Shown: positions 11,985 through 27,364 of the stretch, piece after piece
Layout: the number at the start of each line of letters is the position of its first letter
How positions within the stretch are numbered: position 1 is the stretch's first letter
IMG/VR virus record: IMGVR_UViG_3300045836_000209
Span: 1 to 38,594 of that record
Reading direction: 5' to 3' (one strand)
DNA length: 38,594 nt
DNA from: a virus
The notes under the pieces: generated by a model
The model's input: the letters and a program-made list of their open reading frames with translations, nothing else
Told to the model about the DNA's origin: nothing
Database searches by the model: none
Made by a program: the position numbers and the translations under genes

Positions 11985-12493
11985 GCCCTTACGAGCGCGA
12001 CGTCTACCAGCAGCTCGAAGACGCAAAGCGGATCATCGCCTACCTGATCACGTGCGACGGCAAAGACCACGCGCGTATCCCGCTCAACGCGTTCATAGGG
12101 GTCTCCAACAGCGATCAGATCGTCGTGTGGCAGGACCCGGTGAAGTTCGAGATGGTCGTCGCGTTCCGCGGCGCGTACATCGGCGAGCATGGCCCCGAGT
12201 ACTTCCCGATGCCCGGCAGGCCAGCCGCGGCCCCGCCGGCGGAGGACGAGATCGTGGACGCGGAGCTCGTCGACGAGCCCGTCGCTGGTTTTGCTCGCGG
12301 TGGCGTCGTAACGCCCGAGATGGTCAACCAGGTCCTGCAACGCTCGTGGGACGCAGCGCACGGCCAGCCCGTGCCATCGCCCCCGACGTTCCGCCACGAG
12401 CCGCATCCAGAGCTGCCTGGCGTCATGCGACCGGTGCTGGATCGGCCGGTCCGGATCGACCCGGCGACCGGCGCAGTCGAGTGGGACAACTGA
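11981..12493 (+). CDS. Hypothetical protein, 170 aa
   Basis: The ATG at 11981 overlaps the preceding stop. The N-terminal half looks folded (YERDVYQQLEDAKRIIAYLI, then NSDQIVVWQDPVKFEMVVAF). The second half is Pro-rich and includes FARGGVVTPEMVNQVLQRS. FARGG is reminiscent of the linker before C-terminal segments of tape-measure proteins, but nothing else supports that link. No family assigned. Confidence 0.68.
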   Translation: MSPYERDVYQQLEDAKRIIAYLITCDGKDHARIPLNAFIGVSNSDQIVVWQDPVKFEMVVAFRGAYIGEHGPEYFPMPGRPAAAPPAEDEIVDAELVDEPVAGFARGGVVTPEMVNQVLQRSWDAAHGQPVPSPPTFRHEPHPELPGVMRPVLDRPVRIDPATGAVEWDN

Positions 12494-12494
12494 C

Positions 12495-12941
12495 GTGGCT
12501 GAGGAGCAGACGCACGAGATCAGCATCCAGCCCGAACAGGCCAGCGACGGCAAGACCTGGTACCGGGCGGTGTGCAGCTGCGGGCAACGCATCCGGCACA
12601 TCCACGACCGGCGCGAAGGCGCCGAACGTTCTGGACGCGGCCACATCGCCATCAACACACCACCACCGCCTGGCCGATACCAACTCGACCAGGACAGCGA
12701 CGAGATTCGGCTCAGCTGTCTCGACTGCGACCAATACCTGATCGCGATCCACTGCGAGGACGACGAGACACGCGCGATCGTTCTCGCCACCGCCGCGGAG
12801 GCCCACGAGAGCCGACGGCACGCCGCCGAACCACACCAGCAGCAGCCGCAGCCGACGCCCCTCGAGCTCCTACCACCGATCCACCTCGCTCCAGACGACG
12901 ATTCGGTGCAGTGGACCGCCGTGCGGAGGCAAGAGCCGTGA
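12495..12941 (+). CDS. Cys-rich zinc-type protein, 148 aa
   Basis: Starts with GTG one base after the previous stop. The N-terminal part carries CSCGQRIRHIH (about residues 27-37) and CLDC...IHC (about 75-86), enough for one or two zinc sites. The C-terminal part is His/Gln/Pro-rich and probably disordered. Overlaps the Ntn hydrolase gene by GTGA, so the two are translationally coupled. Function unknown. Confidence 0.68.
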   Translation: MAEEQTHEISIQPEQASDGKTWYRAVCSCGQRIRHIHDRREGAERSGRGHIAINTPPPPGRYQLDQDSDEIRLSCLDCDQYLIAIHCEDDETRAIVLATAAEAHESRRHAAEPHQQQPQPTPLELLPPIHLAPDDDSVQWTAVRRQEP

Positions 12942-13537
12942 CGGTCATCGCTGCGATCCCGATCGACGGCCGCGTGCTCATGGCGGCCGACACGCTGCTA
13001 TGCCGCCGCGGCAGCCGGATCACCACCACGCACAAGATCAGCACGCTGCTCGTCGGCCCGAAGTACGAACAGCACGCGCTGCTGGCCATCGCCGGCAGTA
13101 CCGCACTCGCGCAGCTCGCGCACCACTGGTTCATCACCGAGTCCCACACCCCAGACCTCAAGGACCCTGACGAGGCCAAAGCCGATGAGTGGGCACACCG
13201 CATCGCGGTCCGGCTGTGCAAACTGGCCACCACCGCGGAGCCGCCGCTCACGGTCGACGACGGAGAAGTCGACGGCGAGGCGCTACTCGCTCTCGGCCCG
13301 TGGCTGTGGCTGCTCTCCGGCCAAGCAGCCGTACCGACCGGCCCGACTGCGATCGGCTCCGGAGCGGCGGAGGCACGCGGCGCTCTCTACGCGGCCGACG
13401 AACTCGGCTTGGCGAGGAACTACCCGCACGATGCGCTGCGCCTGGCCGTGCGGACCGCCATTGCGCTTGACTCGAACTGCGGCGGCGAGATCGACATCGA
13501 GGACACGCGGCTCGTCGACACGGCAGCGAACTCCTAG
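12938..13537 (+). CDS. Proteasome/HslV-like Ntn hydrolase (predicted peptidase)
   Basis: A 199-residue protein fitting the 20S-beta/HslV Ntn-hydrolase fold. After the initiator residue comes TVIAAIPIDGRVLMAADT. With T2 as the nucleophile Thr1, D18 becomes D17 as in proteasome beta subunits, and K33 of HKIS becomes position 32, close to catalytic Lys33. AIAGSTALAQLA (G53) matches the glycine of the substrate strand, and AIGSGAAEARGALYAADELG matches the conserved GSG-helix region. No propeptide is present. No HslU/ATPase gene is nearby. It is last in its operon, seven bases from the convergent glycan cassette. Target unknown. Confidence 0.76.
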   Translation: MTVIAAIPIDGRVLMAADTLLCRRGSRITTTHKISTLLVGPKYEQHALLAIAGSTALAQLAHHWFITESHTPDLKDPDEAKADEWAHRIAVRLCKLATTAEPPLTVDDGEVDGEALLALGPWLWLLSGQAAVPTGPTAIGSGAAEARGALYAADELGLARNYPHDALRLAVRTAIALDSNCGGEIDIEDTRLVDTAANS

Positions 13538-13544
13538 CGATCTC

Positions 13545-14186
13545 CTAATTGATCCCAGACTTGGCGTTCGCGCCCTTCCCGGCCGTGTGCCCATCCCAGA
13601 CGCGCCAGACCCACGTCTCGACGTCCAGGTGCCGGAACCTGGCGCCGGCGTCGAGCAACGCGATCAGCATCTGCTCGTCCTCGCCGCTGTAGCGGCCGCC
13701 CGGCAGCGTGCGGCCCTCGGGGAAGCCGCCGGCGCGCCGCACCGTCTCCGTGCGCGCCATGTGCGTGATCGGGATGAACGAGCCGCGGTGGCGCAGGTGG
13801 TACTCCTGCTCGCGGCCGAACGGAATGCCCCAGGGCTTGGTCCAGATCCCGCCGACGGTCACCGCGGTCGGATCGGCGCCGCCGAGCATCCGCGGCCGCG
13901 GGTACACCAGGTCGACGTCCGGTTCGTGTTCGAGCACCCGTGCCAGCGCGGCGACGTGGTTCCTAAGGAGCAGGTCGTCGTCATCGAGCCACGCCACGAG
14001 ATCCGCGGCCACCTTCGCCAAGGCGCGGTTCCTCGTCGCCGCGGCGCCCGTGCGCTCCGGATCCGCCTCAACGATGATCTCGTCGGGTAGGCGGTGCTGC
14101 GCGGTCACCGACTCGACGGCCTCGTGCAGCTGCTTCTCGCGTCCGGGAATGGTGGCGATGACCACCGCGACCGACAAGCGCCTCAC
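13545..14186 (-). CDS. Family 2-type glycosyltransferase (GT-A)
   Basis: A 213-residue protein read leftward from a GTG (14186-14184) overlapping the preceding stop (GTGA). The opening VAVVIATIPGREKQLHEAVE and ATRNRAL (about 50-56) fit the nucleotide-sugar pocket. WLDDDD (D68-D71) is the metal-binding DxD region, and later GGFPEG...GEDEQMLIALL is the acceptor-side acidic motif of GT2 enzymes. It would transfer a sugar from an activated donor. Longer in-frame reading upstream of the GTG overlaps the epimerase gene and is rejected. Last gene of the reversed cassette. Confidence 0.85.
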   Translation of the reverse strand: MRRLSVAVVIATIPGREKQLHEAVESVTAQHRLPDEIIVEADPERTGAAATRNRALAKVAADLVAWLDDDDLLLRNHVAALARVLEHEPDVDLVYPRPRMLGGADPTAVTVGGIWTKPWGIPFGREQEYHLRHRGSFIPITHMARTETVRRAGGFPEGRTLPGGRYSGEDEQMLIALLDAGARFRHLDVETWVWRVWDGHTAGKGANAKSGIN

Positions 14187-15112
14187 GCGGCCGCCAGACC
14201 CTTCTCCAAGGCCTCGCTGATCCCTTGCTCGAGCGAGATCCGCGGCTGGTAGAACCGGCGCAACCGCGCCGTGTCCGCCACCCGATAGGCGACTCCGGCC
14301 GGCGCGTGCACCAGGTGCCGGATCTGCGGCTGGTAGCCGCCGCCGCGCGCGTCGATCACCAGCTTGGCCAGCTCGTTGAACGAGGCCGGGCGCCCGGTGC
14401 CGATGTTCACCGGGCAGTTCACCTGGAAGTCGCGGTCGGCCTCGAGCAGCGCGAGCGTGGCGCCGACGACGTCGTCGATGTGCACCCAGTCGCGCACCTG
14501 CTCGCCGTCGCCCCAGATGTCGAACGGGTCGGCCAGGCGCACGGCGCGGTCGATGAACGACGGGAACGGGTAGTCGAGGGGCTGGTCTGGTCCGTAGCCG
14601 GAGAACGGCCGCACGATGATGACGCGCTTGCCCTGCCGCCGGGCGTGCCTGGCCAGCTGCTCGCCGGTCAGCTTCGCCCACCCGTAGGTGGCGTCCGGCC
14701 GGCCGATGTTCGCGGCCCGCTCGGTCCGGATGTCGTCCTCGTGTAGCGGCCGCGGCCGCGACAGGTCGTTTTGCAGGTCGACCGGGTAGGCGGCGGAGCT
14801 GGAGAAGTACACCGCTCTCGGGGTCTCGGATTGTTCGAGCCAGCGGAAGAACCACGAGTCGAGCGCGAGGTTCGTGGCCACCGCGAGCGGTGAGCCGTCG
14901 ATGCTGGCGCGGCCGCCGATGACCGCGGCGCAGTGGATCGCCAGGTCGAACGCCGGGCAGTGGACTAGATCGGCCGCGTCGCGGCGGAAGTAGTCCAGTG
15001 CGTCGCTACCGAGCTTCAGGTCCAGGCCGTAGACCTCGTCGCCGCGCTCCATGAACGCCAAGCGCAAGTGGTGGCCGACGAACCCGCAGTCGCCAGTGAT
15101 CAGTACTCGCAT
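14183..15112 (-). CDS. NAD-dependent sugar epimerase/dehydratase (extended SDR)
   Basis: A 309-residue protein of the extended short-chain dehydrogenase family. The Rossmann motif is TGDCGFVG (residues 6-13), the catalytic triad region SSS (104-106) plus YGWAK (Y143, K147), and RPFSGYGP with an NIGTG segment fit nucleotide-sugar epimerases or 4,6-dehydratases such as GalE-, RmlB- or fucose-synthase-like enzymes. It would make the sugar donor for the neighbouring glycosyltransferases. The exact substrate cannot be read. The ATG at 15112 overlaps the preceding stop and gives normal family length. Confidence 0.9.
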   Translation of the reverse strand: MRVLITGDCGFVGHHLRLAFMERGDEVYGLDLKLGSDALDYFRRDAADLVHCPAFDLAIHCAAVIGGRASIDGSPLAVATNLALDSWFFRWLEQSETPRAVYFSSSAAYPVDLQNDLSRPRPLHEDDIRTERAANIGRPDATYGWAKLTGEQLARHARRQGKRVIIVRPFSGYGPDQPLDYPFPSFIDRAVRLADPFDIWGDGEQVRDWVHIDDVVGATLALLEADRDFQVNCPVNIGTGRPASFNELAKLVIDARGGGYQPQIRHLVHAPAGVAYRVADTARLRRFYQPRISLEQGISEALEKGLAAA

Positions 15113-15660
15113 CAGCGGCACATCCAAAGCTGGAAGGTGTACGGGCTCGGGGACTTCGGCGTGAACAGCTCGCAGCGCCGGTCGCCCCAGCCGGCCTTAG
15201 CGAGCATCGAGTCCAGGTCGCCGGCGAGCCACGACCAGTAGTGCTCAGGGTTCGAATCGTCCACCTCGCCGTGCGGCGTGGTCAGTACCAGGCCGAAGCA
15301 GCGGCGCCGGATCGCCGCGAGCACCGCGTCCGGGTCCTCGACGTGCTCGAGGGTTTCGGAGCACACGAACACGTCGGTTTGTACCGCGCCGATCGCGTCC
15401 TCGAGGCGGATGCCGTACCGGCTGTAGTCCGACAGGATCCGGGAGCGCCACGGATGCTTGGAGCCGAGCACGATCGCGCCGTCGCCGCACGAGAGGTCGG
15501 CCACGGTCTCAGCGCTCATCAGGCCGGCGAGTTCGTCGAGGGCTTGCGTGGTGCGGGCGACGCGCTCGACGTGGTCGGGCCAGATCGTGTGGTCGTACGG
15601 CGCCGCGTAGAGCTGCGCGAGCTGCCCGGGCGTGTAGAACGCGCGCAGTTGGCGGCGCAT
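15112..15660 (-). CDS. SAM-dependent methyltransferase
   Basis: A 182-residue class I methyltransferase. Motif I is VADLSCGDGAIV (about 53-64), binding the methionine part of SAM, and the post-motif VFVCSETLEHVEDPDAVLAA (about 98-117) is the UbiE/Methyltransf_11-like EHV segment. The N-terminus (LRAFYTPGQLAQLYAAPYDH) resembles sugar- or lipid-methylating enzymes in glycan clusters. In this context it probably methylates a sugar residue. The ATG at 15660 overlaps the previous stop (ATGA). Confidence 0.85.
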   Translation of the reverse strand: MRRQLRAFYTPGQLAQLYAAPYDHTIWPDHVERVARTTQALDELAGLMSAETVADLSCGDGAIVLGSKHPWRSRILSDYSRYGIRLEDAIGAVQTDVFVCSETLEHVEDPDAVLAAIRRRCFGLVLTTPHGEVDDSNPEHYWSWLAGDLDSMLAKAGWGDRRCELFTPKSPSPYTFQLWMCR

Positions 15661-16373
15661 CAGCACAGCCCCGCTGTCCGCAGGTGCTGTACGGCGCCCG
15701 GCAGTCCGTCGCGCACCCAGGCCTCGAATACCGCCTTGTCCGCGGCGTCGATTTCGGGCGCGTTCGCCTCGGCATAGCCGGCATCGCGCACCGCTTTCCC
15801 GGCGGCCGGGTGCAGGTGTTCGATCACCGTGCCGGGCAGGTACCGCAGCCGGCCCATCGCGCTGCCCAGCTCGAGCCACACGTTATCGGCGTACAGGTGG
15901 ATCAGGCCGGGCGGCACCATCCAGCCGAGCGTGCGCACGATCCCGGCGGTCATGAACACGGCGGTCGGCAGCTTTTCGCCCTGGAGCAGGTCGTTGCCGT
16001 ACACGATCCCGCCGCCTAGGTCGTCGAGCGCGTCGACGACGTCGACGTCCCAGCCTTCGGTGCGCGGCAGGTGGTCGTCGCCCATGAACCCGATCACGTC
16101 CGGCTGCCAACCGGTCAGCGAGTCAGCGTGGTCCTCGAGCAGGTCGAGGGCGACGGCGTTGAGCGTCCCGCACATCCGCCGGCGCTGGCCGACCCACAGC
16201 GCGCCGAGGAACGGCAGCTCGACCGCGCGGTACTCCTCCAGGCGCGGGTCGTCCTCGTCGACGGCGACGACCAGCTGCGTGCTGACGATGCGCCGCGTGG
16301 TCCAGGCATCGGCGAGCCGGGCGATGTTCTCCGGGCGGCCGCGCGAGGGCACGATCACTACCAGGTCAGCCAC
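15660..16373 (-). CDS. GT-A-type glycosyltransferase
   Basis: A 237-residue protein. VADLVVIVPSRGRPENIARL opens a GT-A nucleotide-binding domain. The pair VAVDEDDPRL (about 37-45) and GFMGDDH (about 95-101) provide the acidic metal-binding residues, followed by TEGWD. Typical of GT2-like enzymes found in phage and mobile glycan clusters. The GTG start at 16373 overlaps the GT4 gene by eight bases; the longer in-frame reading to 16496 would run deep into that gene. Substrate unknown. Confidence 0.82.
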   Translation of the reverse strand: MADLVVIVPSRGRPENIARLADAWTTRRIVSTQLVVAVDEDDPRLEEYRAVELPFLGALWVGQRRRMCGTLNAVALDLLEDHADSLTGWQPDVIGFMGDDHLPRTEGWDVDVVDALDDLGGGIVYGNDLLQGEKLPTAVFMTAGIVRTLGWMVPPGLIHLYADNVWLELGSAMGRLRYLPGTVIEHLHPAAGKAVRDAGYAEANAPEIDAADKAVFEAWVRDGLPGAVQHLRTAGLC

Positions 16374-17388
16374 TGTAGGCCGCCTCCCACTTGTCGATGT
16401 GTCGGTCGATGACCCACTCGCTGGCCAGTTCACGCGCGCCGGCGCCCATCTCGGCGCGCAGCCTGGGCTGCTCAGCGAGCAGCTCGAGGTATTCACCCCA
16501 CTCGTGATCCCGGCGCACCAGGAACCCGGTGACCCCGTGCTGGACGAAGCCGCGGTAGGGCTCGACGTCCGACGCGATCACGACCATGCCGCGCGCGGCG
16601 TACTCCAGGGCCTTGAGGGCGCTCTTGCACCGGTTGAACTGGTTCGGCGCGAGTGGCGCGAGGCCGACCTGCCAGTCCAGGCGCCGCATGTAGGCCAGCG
16701 GGTCCTGCCAGACCGGCACCCATGGCCGCACTTCGCCCCACGGCGCGCCGACGACATGCCGGTAGTCCACGCCCATGAACGTCATCCCGGTGCCGGCGTT
16801 GCGGGCGAAGAACCGGCGCAGCGCTGAGCGCACGTATTCGAAGTCGCCGCGGTGGGTGTCGGATCCAGCCCAGCCCAGGGTCATCGGTCCGGCCTGGATG
16901 ACCCGCGGCAGGTCGAAAACTCTCGCCTCGAGGTAGTTCGGCAGCACGTGGATCGGCGCCGTGACGCCGTACTCGCGGCGGATCACGCCGGCGAGGTACG
17001 GCGTGGAGACCGAGATCGCGTCCGCCGAGCGCATGTTAGCAAGGAGCCGGGCGCGCAGCTGCGCGTCGTTGTAGAACGCCCGAGCCGCCCCAGACATGGG
17101 GTCGACGTTGAGCAGGTCGTCGTCGATCTCGAAGATGCGGCGTACCTCGCCGGCGCGCTCCAGCCACTGCTGCGAGGGGCCCTCGTTGCTCACACGCTGC
17201 CCGACCAGGACATGCGAGCGCGGCCGTTTGCCCGGGAGGATTCGCAGCGTCGTGTCGTACTCCACCGCGTGGCCGCGCCGCTCGAGGGCGTCGAGCGGCA
17301 CCTTGAGCCGGTAGTAGCCGACACCATCCCTGTCGGCGAGCCAGCCGCCGACCACCAGCCTCGAACAGGGTTCCACGCCGGAAATCAT
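16366..17388 (-). CDS. GT4-like (GT-B) glycosyltransferase
   Basis: A 340-residue GT-B enzyme. After the N-terminal half come VSTPYLAGVIRREYGV and VLPNYLE, then the donor domain with MTLGWAGSDTHRGDFEYVRS. The signature ALKALEYAARGMVVIASDVE and PYRGFVQHGVTGFLV closes the GT4 glycosyltransferase motif. Family enzymes retain configuration and use nucleotide-sugar donors. It is first in the leftward cassette. No Shine-Dalgarno is visible before its ATG (17388-17386). The start faces the terminase operon across a 46-bp divergent region. Confidence 0.88.
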   Translation of the reverse strand: MISGVEPCSRLVVGGWLADRDGVGYYRLKVPLDALERRGHAVEYDTTLRILPGKRPRSHVLVGQRVSNEGPSQQWLERAGEVRRIFEIDDDLLNVDPMSGAARAFYNDAQLRARLLANMRSADAISVSTPYLAGVIRREYGVTAPIHVLPNYLEARVFDLPRVIQAGPMTLGWAGSDTHRGDFEYVRSALRRFFARNAGTGMTFMGVDYRHVVGAPWGEVRPWVPVWQDPLAYMRRLDWQVGLAPLAPNQFNRCKSALKALEYAARGMVVIASDVEPYRGFVQHGVTGFLVRRDHEWGEYLELLAEQPRLRAEMGAGARELASEWVIDRHIDKWEAAYSG

Positions 17389-25231: not shown

Positions 25232-27364
25232 ATGACCGCGACGACCGTCAACGGCAAGCTGCTGAGCCCCGCAGCCGGGCAGCCGGCCAGCGCCCAGGTC
25301 ACCATCACCCTCGTTGACTACGACGACACCCCCGTCGTCGGGTTCAACACGGTCGACGACACGGAGATCCTCGCCACCGACACGATCGTGCCCACCCCGG
25401 CCGGGCTGTGGACCGTGCAGCTCGTGCCGAACGCGGACATCCAGCTCACCAACGGCAGCGCGCAGACCGCCTACCGGATCGTCGAATCCGGCGCCGGGCA
25501 GACGTTCACCTACTGGATCATCGTCGCCGCCTCCGTCAACCCGGTGTGGGCCGGATCGATCCGCACCACTCTGATCGGCAACACGGGCGGCACCACGCCG
25601 AACGGGTACGCGATCCAGGGCGCGCTGACCGTCGGCGGCAAGAGCACCCTGAGCGGCGGCCTGCAGCTGCCGACCGGCGCCGCCTCCGGCGACGTGCTGA
25701 CCTCCGATGCATCCGGCAACGGCGCCTGGAAGCCGACGCCCGGTATCCAGCCCTCCGGGGACTCGACCGGGGCCGCCGACACCACGGCGATTGCCGCGGC
25801 GATCACCGCGGCGTCCAACGCAGGCGGGGGAAAGGTCATCCTCGCCGCGGGCGTGTTCACCACGACGCTGATCACGCTTCCGGCCAACGTCGTCCTCGAG
25901 GGCGCCGGCAGCGGAGCGACCACGCTCATGCTCGCCGCGGGCCAGAACACCGACCTGGTTCAGACGACCAATTTCGCAACGCTGACCGGTACGGACACAT
26001 CAGTCACCCCGTACGGCTTCCAGGTGCGAAAGATCACCCTGGATGGCAACAAGAGCCACCAGACGTCGGGTTCCGGGAACTGCCTGAGCATCTACGGGTA
26101 CGGCTTCGTCCTCGAGGACGTGATCGCACGCAACGCCATGGGCTACGGCATCTGGTCCGAGTGGGGCAGCGCGTCGGCGTTCAACACGCCGAACGGCATG
26201 GAGTCCTACGCCGGCCACATCAAGTGCCACGACAACAACGGCGGGACACTGAACTTCATCGGGCCGCACGACTCGCAGTGGTCCGACATGATCCTCGTTG
26301 GGAACGTGAGCTACTCGGCCGGAAAGGTCGCGTTCCAGGTCCCGACCGACGGGCGTGCCAACGGCTCGATCTTCCGCGGCGTGCACGTCTACGGCGGCGC
26401 CTACGACTACGGCGTGCTGGTCGCCTCGGCCGGTGTCACCTTCGAAGGCTGCCAGTTCGAAGGTGCCCTCGTAGCCCAGATGCTGGTCAAGGCGAGCCAG
26501 GTCATCGCCTCGGACTGCCGCTGGTTCTGGGGCTCGTCCGGCGCGAACACGGCCAAGGGCATCGTGCTCGGCGACGCGTCGCACACGAACCTCAACGGCC
26601 TTCGATTGACGGGAAAGATCGAGAACTGTAGTGGTGGTGCGATCGACCTGACCTACGCCACGGGCGGCTCGAATCTGTATGACCTGCTCGCCGTGTACGT
26701 CAACCCGTTCACAGTCCCGTCCCCGGCCGTCGTCTCCGCGCCCGGCAGCAACGACACCGCGACGATCACCGTCACCAACAACAACGGTGTCGCCACCTCG
26801 GACACCCAGCTGCAGACACCGGGAGCAGCGAAGGTCGGCAGCCTGTCCGTCGGCGGCGTGGCTGTGCCGAGCATCACCGATACCGACCCGCTCGGCTTCG
26901 GGTATGCCACCACGCACCCGTGGGCTGCCACGGCGAACGGCGCCGCGGCCCTCTTCGCCGCGGGCGCCGCCTTGTATCAGCAGCTGGTCGGCTACGGCAT
27001 GTCCACGAACCAATTGCGGCTGTTCGTGGGCACCAGCAGCGGCAACATCAGCGCGGGCCTGTACAACAACGGGGGTCAGGCAGGCTCGGCGCGGCTGCCC
27101 AACGCGCGGCAGGCCACCACCGGCGCGATCCCGTGCCCAGCGAGCGGCATGGGCACCGTGACCCTGACCACCACAGTGACGGTAGGCCGGTCTTGGTACG
27201 CCGCGTTGAGCTGCGACAACACCAGCGCCACGTTCCAGCGCAGCGCGCCGCAGAGCAACATCTCCTCCGGCGTCGCCGCCAACCAGGGCAGCGCGCACCC
27301 GTTGCCCGCGACCGCCGGCGCCGCGAACGGCGGCGGAACTGTCCTCTGGATGGCGACAGCATGA
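25232..27364 (+). CDS. Beta-helix fiber/spike-like protein
   Basis: A 710-residue protein. Residues 1-115 form an Ig/FN-like adaptor (TIVPTPAGLWTVQLVPNADI ... FTYWIIVAASVNPVWAGSIR). Then come a linker (ALTVGGKSTLSGGLQLP) and a pectate-lyase-like right-handed beta-helix (DTTAIAAAITAASNAGGGKV, FVLEDVIARNAMGYGIW, VTFEGCQFEG; about 180-480). The last 200 residues are another beta-rich domain with Ser/Thr-rich loops. Such proteins bind or cut polysaccharides as trimers. It lies between capsid and connector genes, so it may be a head-attached fiber (as in phi29) rather than a tailspike. GGGAGG precedes the ATG. Confidence 0.75.
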   Translation: MTATTVNGKLLSPAAGQPASAQVTITLVDYDDTPVVGFNTVDDTEILATDTIVPTPAGLWTVQLVPNADIQLTNGSAQTAYRIVESGAGQTFTYWIIVAASVNPVWAGSIRTTLIGNTGGTTPNGYAIQGALTVGGKSTLSGGLQLPTGAASGDVLTSDASGNGAWKPTPGIQPSGDSTGAADTTAIAAAITAASNAGGGKVILAAGVFTTTLITLPANVVLEGAGSGATTLMLAAGQNTDLVQTTNFATLTGTDTSVTPYGFQVRKITLDGNKSHQTSGSGNCLSIYGYGFVLEDVIARNAMGYGIWSEWGSASAFNTPNGMESYAGHIKCHDNNGGTLNFIGPHDSQWSDMILVGNVSYSAGKVAFQVPTDGRANGSIFRGVHVYGGAYDYGVLVASAGVTFEGCQFEGALVAQMLVKASQVIASDCRWFWGSSGANTAKGIVLGDASHTNLNGLRLTGKIENCSGGAIDLTYATGGSNLYDLLAVYVNPFTVPSPAVVSAPGSNDTATITVTNNNGVATSDTQLQTPGAAKVGSLSVGGVAVPSITDTDPLGFGYATTHPWAATANGAAALFAAGAALYQQLVGYGMSTNQLRLFVGTSSGNISAGLYNNGGQAGSARLPNARQATTGAIPCPASGMGTVTLTTTVTVGRSWYAALSCDNTSATFQRSAPQSNISSGVAANQGSAHPLPATAGAANGGGTVLWMATA

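Follow-up and report, generated by a model that had tools for sequence, protein, structure and literature searches.

Proteasome-like hydrolases are already an established family in phages. Fuchs, Alva and Lupas (2021) added 22 proteasome homologues to those known, among them the phage-borne PPH and AAH (PMC8665760). PPH is about 140 aa long, lacks helix H2 and is present in phages and their hosts, while AAH belongs to group I, has two helix pairs and no propeptide, and is distributed among phages and bacteria, including actinobacteria; no actinobacterial phage carrying AAH was found (PMC8665760). These authors found neither an associated AAA+ partner nor a functional context, and the family also extends to connectase, a monomeric ligase (PMC8665760). 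A BPH (betaproteobacterial proteasome homologue) has additionally been annotated in a Citromicrobium phage paper (PMC8953757).

The window analyzed here is the whole 38,594-nucleotide stretch of viral DNA in IMG/VR record IMGVR_UViG_3300045836_000209. It encodes a protein that we consider likely to be a compact proteasome-like Ntn hydrolase from the HslV/BPH (group I) side of the family, a predicted threonine peptidase that would stand alone and serve a conditional accessory role. The original prediction implied that such a hydrolase was novel in a phage, which is not the case: the phage family has been described (PMC8665760), has its own PHROG (phrog_1040), and is abundant: of 50,697 phage records, tblastn matched 336 with a PPH-like phage homologue as the query and 209 with an AAH-like one. 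Within this family the window protein is a divergent addition.

The Gene and Its Predicted Fold

The gene for the HslV/BPH-like Ntn hydrolase lies at 12938..13537 on the + strand, exactly where it had been placed originally, and is assigned from its translation, phrog_1040, AlphaFold (AF2) and Foldseek results and a profile search of the PDB. Its 199 codons and stop begin with GTG, specifying an initiator Met followed by Thr. That the open reading frame is a genuine gene is evident from a ribosome-binding site (GGAGG, 12925..12929, + strand) separated from the GTG by an 8-nt spacer, from the overlap (GTGA) between its start and the stop codon that ends the preceding gene (12495-12941), and from its codon bias: GC contents of 0.70/0.51/0.865 at the three codon positions of 12938-13537 are as expected of a coding frame within 69% GC DNA. 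Where Thr follows the initiator Met, removal of the Met is expected to leave an N-terminal Thr, and the translation confirms that, counting this Thr as residue 1, Asp is found at 17 and Lys at 32.

Residues 1-190 of the protein matched the phrog_1040 'peptidase HslV family' profile at E = 7.2e-17; judged from sequence, the HslV-like resemblance exceeds chance. Proteasome matches in Pfam and NCBIfam were sub-threshold only (0.068 for Pfam PF00227 on its own), and a PDB search with the single sequence returned only PurE, a match judged spurious. When a 26-sequence profile was compared with the PDB, the best match among solved structures was BPH (PDB 5ovs/5ovt/5ovu; 8.5e-18), followed by HslV (about 1e-16). 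An AF2 model built from an alignment of 26 sequences (the window protein and 25 phage relatives) had a mean pLDDT of 88.5 and a pTM of 0.85, and displayed the strand and helix order of an Ntn alpha-beta-beta-alpha sandwich with H1-H4 present, helix pairs 55-67/79-99 and 143-155/163-177 flanking the strands. Foldseek searches with this model matched 996 PDB chains at E<=0.001, the best being HslV (5.5e-9), 20S beta and BPH (TM about 0.70). The claim that this is a proteasome/HslV-like Ntn hydrolase is thereby supported for the fold and the likely chemistry, with no sign of a non-Ntn fold.

Several described systems were compared with the protein, and PPH proper, HslV with HslU and a 20S beta subunit were set aside. 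PPH proper does not fit a protein of 199 aa, as against about 140, in whose model helix 79-99 (H2) is present. HslV (ClpQ) resembles the window protein in fold and in Thr1/Asp17/Lys33/GSG; however, it lies apart in the phylogenetic tree, and no hslU-type gene (AAA_2) was detected on the contig, which is possibly a fragment. A beta subunit of the 20S type (PrcB) was rejected because Thr directly follows Met, leaving no propeptide, and no second proteasome-like open reading frame was found in the window. BPH retains Asp17, Lys33 and an N-terminal Thr in its mature form, but is a bacterial gene with about 21% identity to the window protein. AAH, to which the window protein may belong, shares with it the presence of H1-H4 (in the model) and the lack of a propeptide.

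The Foldseek match to 20S beta could also mean that the protein is a surrogate beta subunit that inserts into, or competes with, the 20S proteasome of an actinobacterial host and re-targets it, and many actinobacteria do possess 20S proteasomes and Mpa/ARC. Nevertheless, BPH and HslV are nearer than proteasome beta in both sequence and fold, the propeptide is absent, and homologues are found in phages of E. coli, Klebsiella and Caulobacter, hosts that have no 20S proteasome, making such a role very unlikely in our estimation.

Predicted Active-Site Residues

Conservation was counted over 78 sequences aligned by the local-pair method, two BPHs and E. coli HslV among them; the HslV sequence used matches annotated HslV genes at 97%. 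The codons for Thr2 (12941..12943, + strand), the predicted nucleophile Thr1 after removal of Met, for Asp18 (12989..12991, +; Asp17 in proteasome beta numbering) and for Lys33 (13034..13036, +; Lys33 of proteasome beta, 32 from Thr) specify residues conserved in 78/78 sequences each, although Thr2 and Asp18, but not Lys33, had been imposed on most of these sequences by the pattern searches. Ten of the 78 are phage homologues obtained by tblastn without any MT motif being imposed, and all ten possess Thr2, as does every other aligned relative. In the MAFFT alignments A3 and A4 the Lys33 of the window protein was shifted three columns by a gap, a placement that the local-pair alignment resolved. 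Gly53 (13094..13096, +), equivalent to the oxyanion-hole Gly47, is conserved in 76 of the 78 sequences, and in the GSG motif Gly140-Ser141-Gly142 (13355..13363, +) Ser141, the Ser129 equivalent, is found in 63/78, while both glycines are invariant in the MAFFT alignments.

The catalytic geometry is predicted from the alignment alone. A C-terminal D-x-x-[S/C]-G element (D178..C181-G182) was overlooked in the original prediction. D178-S-N-C181-G182-G183 (13469..13486, +) corresponds to Asp166..Ser169-Gly170-Gly171 of proteasome beta, in contrast to CIYT in E. coli HslV, and its Asp is present in 54/78 sequences. Position 181, the Ser169 equivalent, is occupied by T in 44, C in 17, S in 11 and V in 6 of the 78; the residue is Cys in the window protein, in the metagenomic relatives L032 and L048 and in the Gordonia phage proteins, Ser in the metagenomic relative L125, and mostly Thr elsewhere. 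Variability at this position would be compatible with a catalytically dead Ntn-fold scaffold akin to proteasome alpha subunits, but with every primary catalytic position intact and Thr placed directly after the initiator Met this is the least credible of the alternatives that we considered. The Cys at the Ser169 position, together with the precedent of connectase and the fact that no assay of this protein group was found in the literature, can likewise be read in favor of a non-degradative reaction (a connectase-like ligase or transpeptidase, or an amidase) instead of proteolysis. However, both H1 and H2, the helix pair missing from connectase, are present in the model, a two-helix S3-S4 insertion of the connectase type is not evident, connectase itself was rejected, and BPH and HslV are the nearest neighbors among solved structures; a non-degradative enzyme therefore appears unlikely.

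Relatives and Phylogenetic Position

Direct searches with the window protein recovered no relatives: tblastn found nothing relevant in the 50,697 phage records at E thresholds of 0.01 and 10, nor in 72,556 plasmids, and scanning viral contigs and genome contigs for peptide words was likewise fruitless. An initial alignment (A1) was too divergent for use in scanning. About 85 relatives were recovered by scanning viral contigs with degenerate N-terminal-motif patterns. The phage proteins of phrog_1040 (PPH and AAH-like) share with the window protein an N-terminal MT, the D, K and GSG residues, and a stand-alone gene in tailed phages, whereas no individual phage record was matched by the window protein with tblastn at E = 0.01.

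In the tree the window protein grouped with L125, L048 and L032 (support 0.64), and at the next node with proteins of the Gordonia phages Bantam, SpeedDemon and Daredevil (0.993). Vibrio and Moorella phage proteins, which we take to be AAH-like, and other AAH-like proteins join in a wider clade with support of 0.977. Five Gordonia phages carry the gene (Bantam, SpeedDemon, DatBoi, Daredevil, and Mollymur), annotated in three of them as 'protease', and the Daredevil protein was the best viral structural match in BFVD (E 5e-11). These Bantamvirus-type proteins share the Cys at the Ser169 position but are 207-216 aa long and only about 24% identical to the window protein; their genes adjoin those for RusA and a Holliday-junction resolvase, whereas the window gene adjoins a glycosyltransferase cassette. 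The pattern of relationships suggests that the window protein is a divergent member of an actinophage branch adjoining AAH-like sequences.

The virus probably infects actinobacteria, as inferred from the affinity of its TerL, which is closest to those of Streptomyces and Microbacterium phages, and from one match in the window each to phrog_12112 (WhiB-like) and to the Rv2179c-like Pfam family. No host emerged when genome contigs were scanned with TerL.

Two observations on other family members are worth recording. In the Moorella phage MTATph1 (L168:3986-4555), the HslV-family CDS WPA89675.1 is annotated from an internal Met downstream of a TTG-Thr; its start has probably been mis-called, because the annotated one would drop the catalytic Thr. 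The order PhoH gene, small open reading frame, HslV-like gene recurs in the Klebsiella phages KP13-26 and 05F01 (L021 and L024) and in Vibrio phage 166E36-1 (L022), which carry two different Ntn subfamilies; this could be a coincidence or a functional link.

Genomic Context

The upstream gene at 12495..12941 (+ strand) encodes a 148-aa protein with two cysteine pairs (CSCG and CLDC), a possible zinc ribbon that may serve as a zinc-binding partner, and is probably co-translated with the Ntn gene. It matched no PHROG or Pfam family. On its other side, the Ntn gene ends 8 bp from a convergent cassette (13545..17388, − strand) that bounds it 3', in which Pfam and PHROGs identified glycosyltransferases, a nucleotide-sugar epimerase and a methyltransferase. 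The cassette sits between an early block and the terminase genes, and related cassettes are found in the phages L003-L007.

Four phages have TerL proteins with 66-70% identity to that of the window and also have its portal and scaffold genes in common, with the capsid gene in view in three. The partner gene has no homologue in any of the four, no phrog_1040 match was found in their whole records, and the 26-sequence profile matched nothing in their fetched flanks. In L004 the convergent cassette comes immediately after a homologue of the gene that ends at 12493, and in L005 the site is occupied by genes for an integrase-like recombinase and an endonuclease VII-like protein. Since the TerL relatives have other genes or nothing at this site, the site seems to be variable and 12495-13537 to be an accessory insertion of two genes.

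These comparisons bear on whether the Ntn gene might encode a prohead (capsid) maturation protease displaced from the head module. No dedicated maturation protease was found in a Pfam scan of the window, aside from a weak phrog_595 match in a MuF-like protein, and in the closest relative, L032 (5165-9689), the Ntn gene is flanked by TerL and by a gene with a weak portal match, which it abuts. In the window the gene is outside the head module, as was originally pointed out, and its absence from all four TerL relatives, which also share the portal gene, makes a required role in head maturation unlikely. Furthermore, in most relatives the neighbors are replication genes, the annotation of Microbacterium phage LeeroyJenkins lists a distinct capsid maturation protease in addition to an Ntn protease of this kind, and a maturation protease is missing entirely from some actinophages (PMC7302621). 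On balance, we regard a displaced maturation protease as highly improbable. Elsewhere in the window, a 710-aa open reading frame (25232-27364) directly follows the capsid gene; its first ~115 aa alone match L003 and L007, where the next head gene follows immediately, and it looks like a small head protein with a large C-terminal extension.

Across about 30 related genes, the 115 same-strand neighbors belong mainly to replication and recombination, with primase/helicase, metallophosphoesterase, endonuclease VII, RusA and WhiB the commonest matches, and no unfoldase family is among the 25 families listed for them. The earlier statement that no ATPase partner is seen was upheld, in that the contig, which is linear and possibly incomplete, yielded no HslU/Mpa-type or other AAA+ unfoldase: searches with AAA_2 and AAA gave no match in the window, and a Pfam scan found no AAA family among its proteins. 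AAA_2 was also absent from the records of the five nearest relatives, and weak AAA matches below the cut-off were seen in two Gordonia records. An ATPase gene could lie outside the contig.

Proposed Function

Host methionine aminopeptidase would remove the initiator Met to expose Thr1, a step that should suffice because there is no propeptide. Assisted by Lys33 and Asp17, Thr1 would then cleave peptide bonds through an acyl-enzyme. Oligomerization into rings of the HslV or BPH type is probable; these would shut the active sites inside and may admit small or unfolded proteins. Given that no unfoldase from the phage was detected, the enzyme may need no ATP or may rely on a factor supplied by the host. 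The original suggestion was that it may act on host proteins or together with a host ATPase. A conditional role, such as clearing regulatory or defence proteins of either host or phage, or peptide recycling, is likely, and virion assembly is not, as the Ntn gene and its Cys-rich partner make up an accessory unit of two genes. It is doubtful, to about the same degree as a non-degradative reaction, that the gene defines an actinophage-specific proteasome-homologue subfamily, with a W-A motif in the second helix and a Cys replacing Ser169 of the catalytic network as its hallmarks, whose members are accessory proteins that degrade specific host proteins without an ATPase and with a Cys-rich partner selecting the substrates.

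Conclusion

Hydrolases of the proteasome-like type are common in phages and have conserved active sites, yet no paper was found that gives a substrate for any of them, and no report was found on activity, processing, oligomer or target for the branch to which the window protein belongs. To this family the present analysis adds a divergent branch, probably on the AAH side, a Cys at the Ser169 position and the context of an accessory insertion. This branch is carried by actinophages, in which Fuchs et al. (2021) found no AAH, and because isolated Gordonia phages of the same clade are available (host G. terrae 3612), its function is directly testable.
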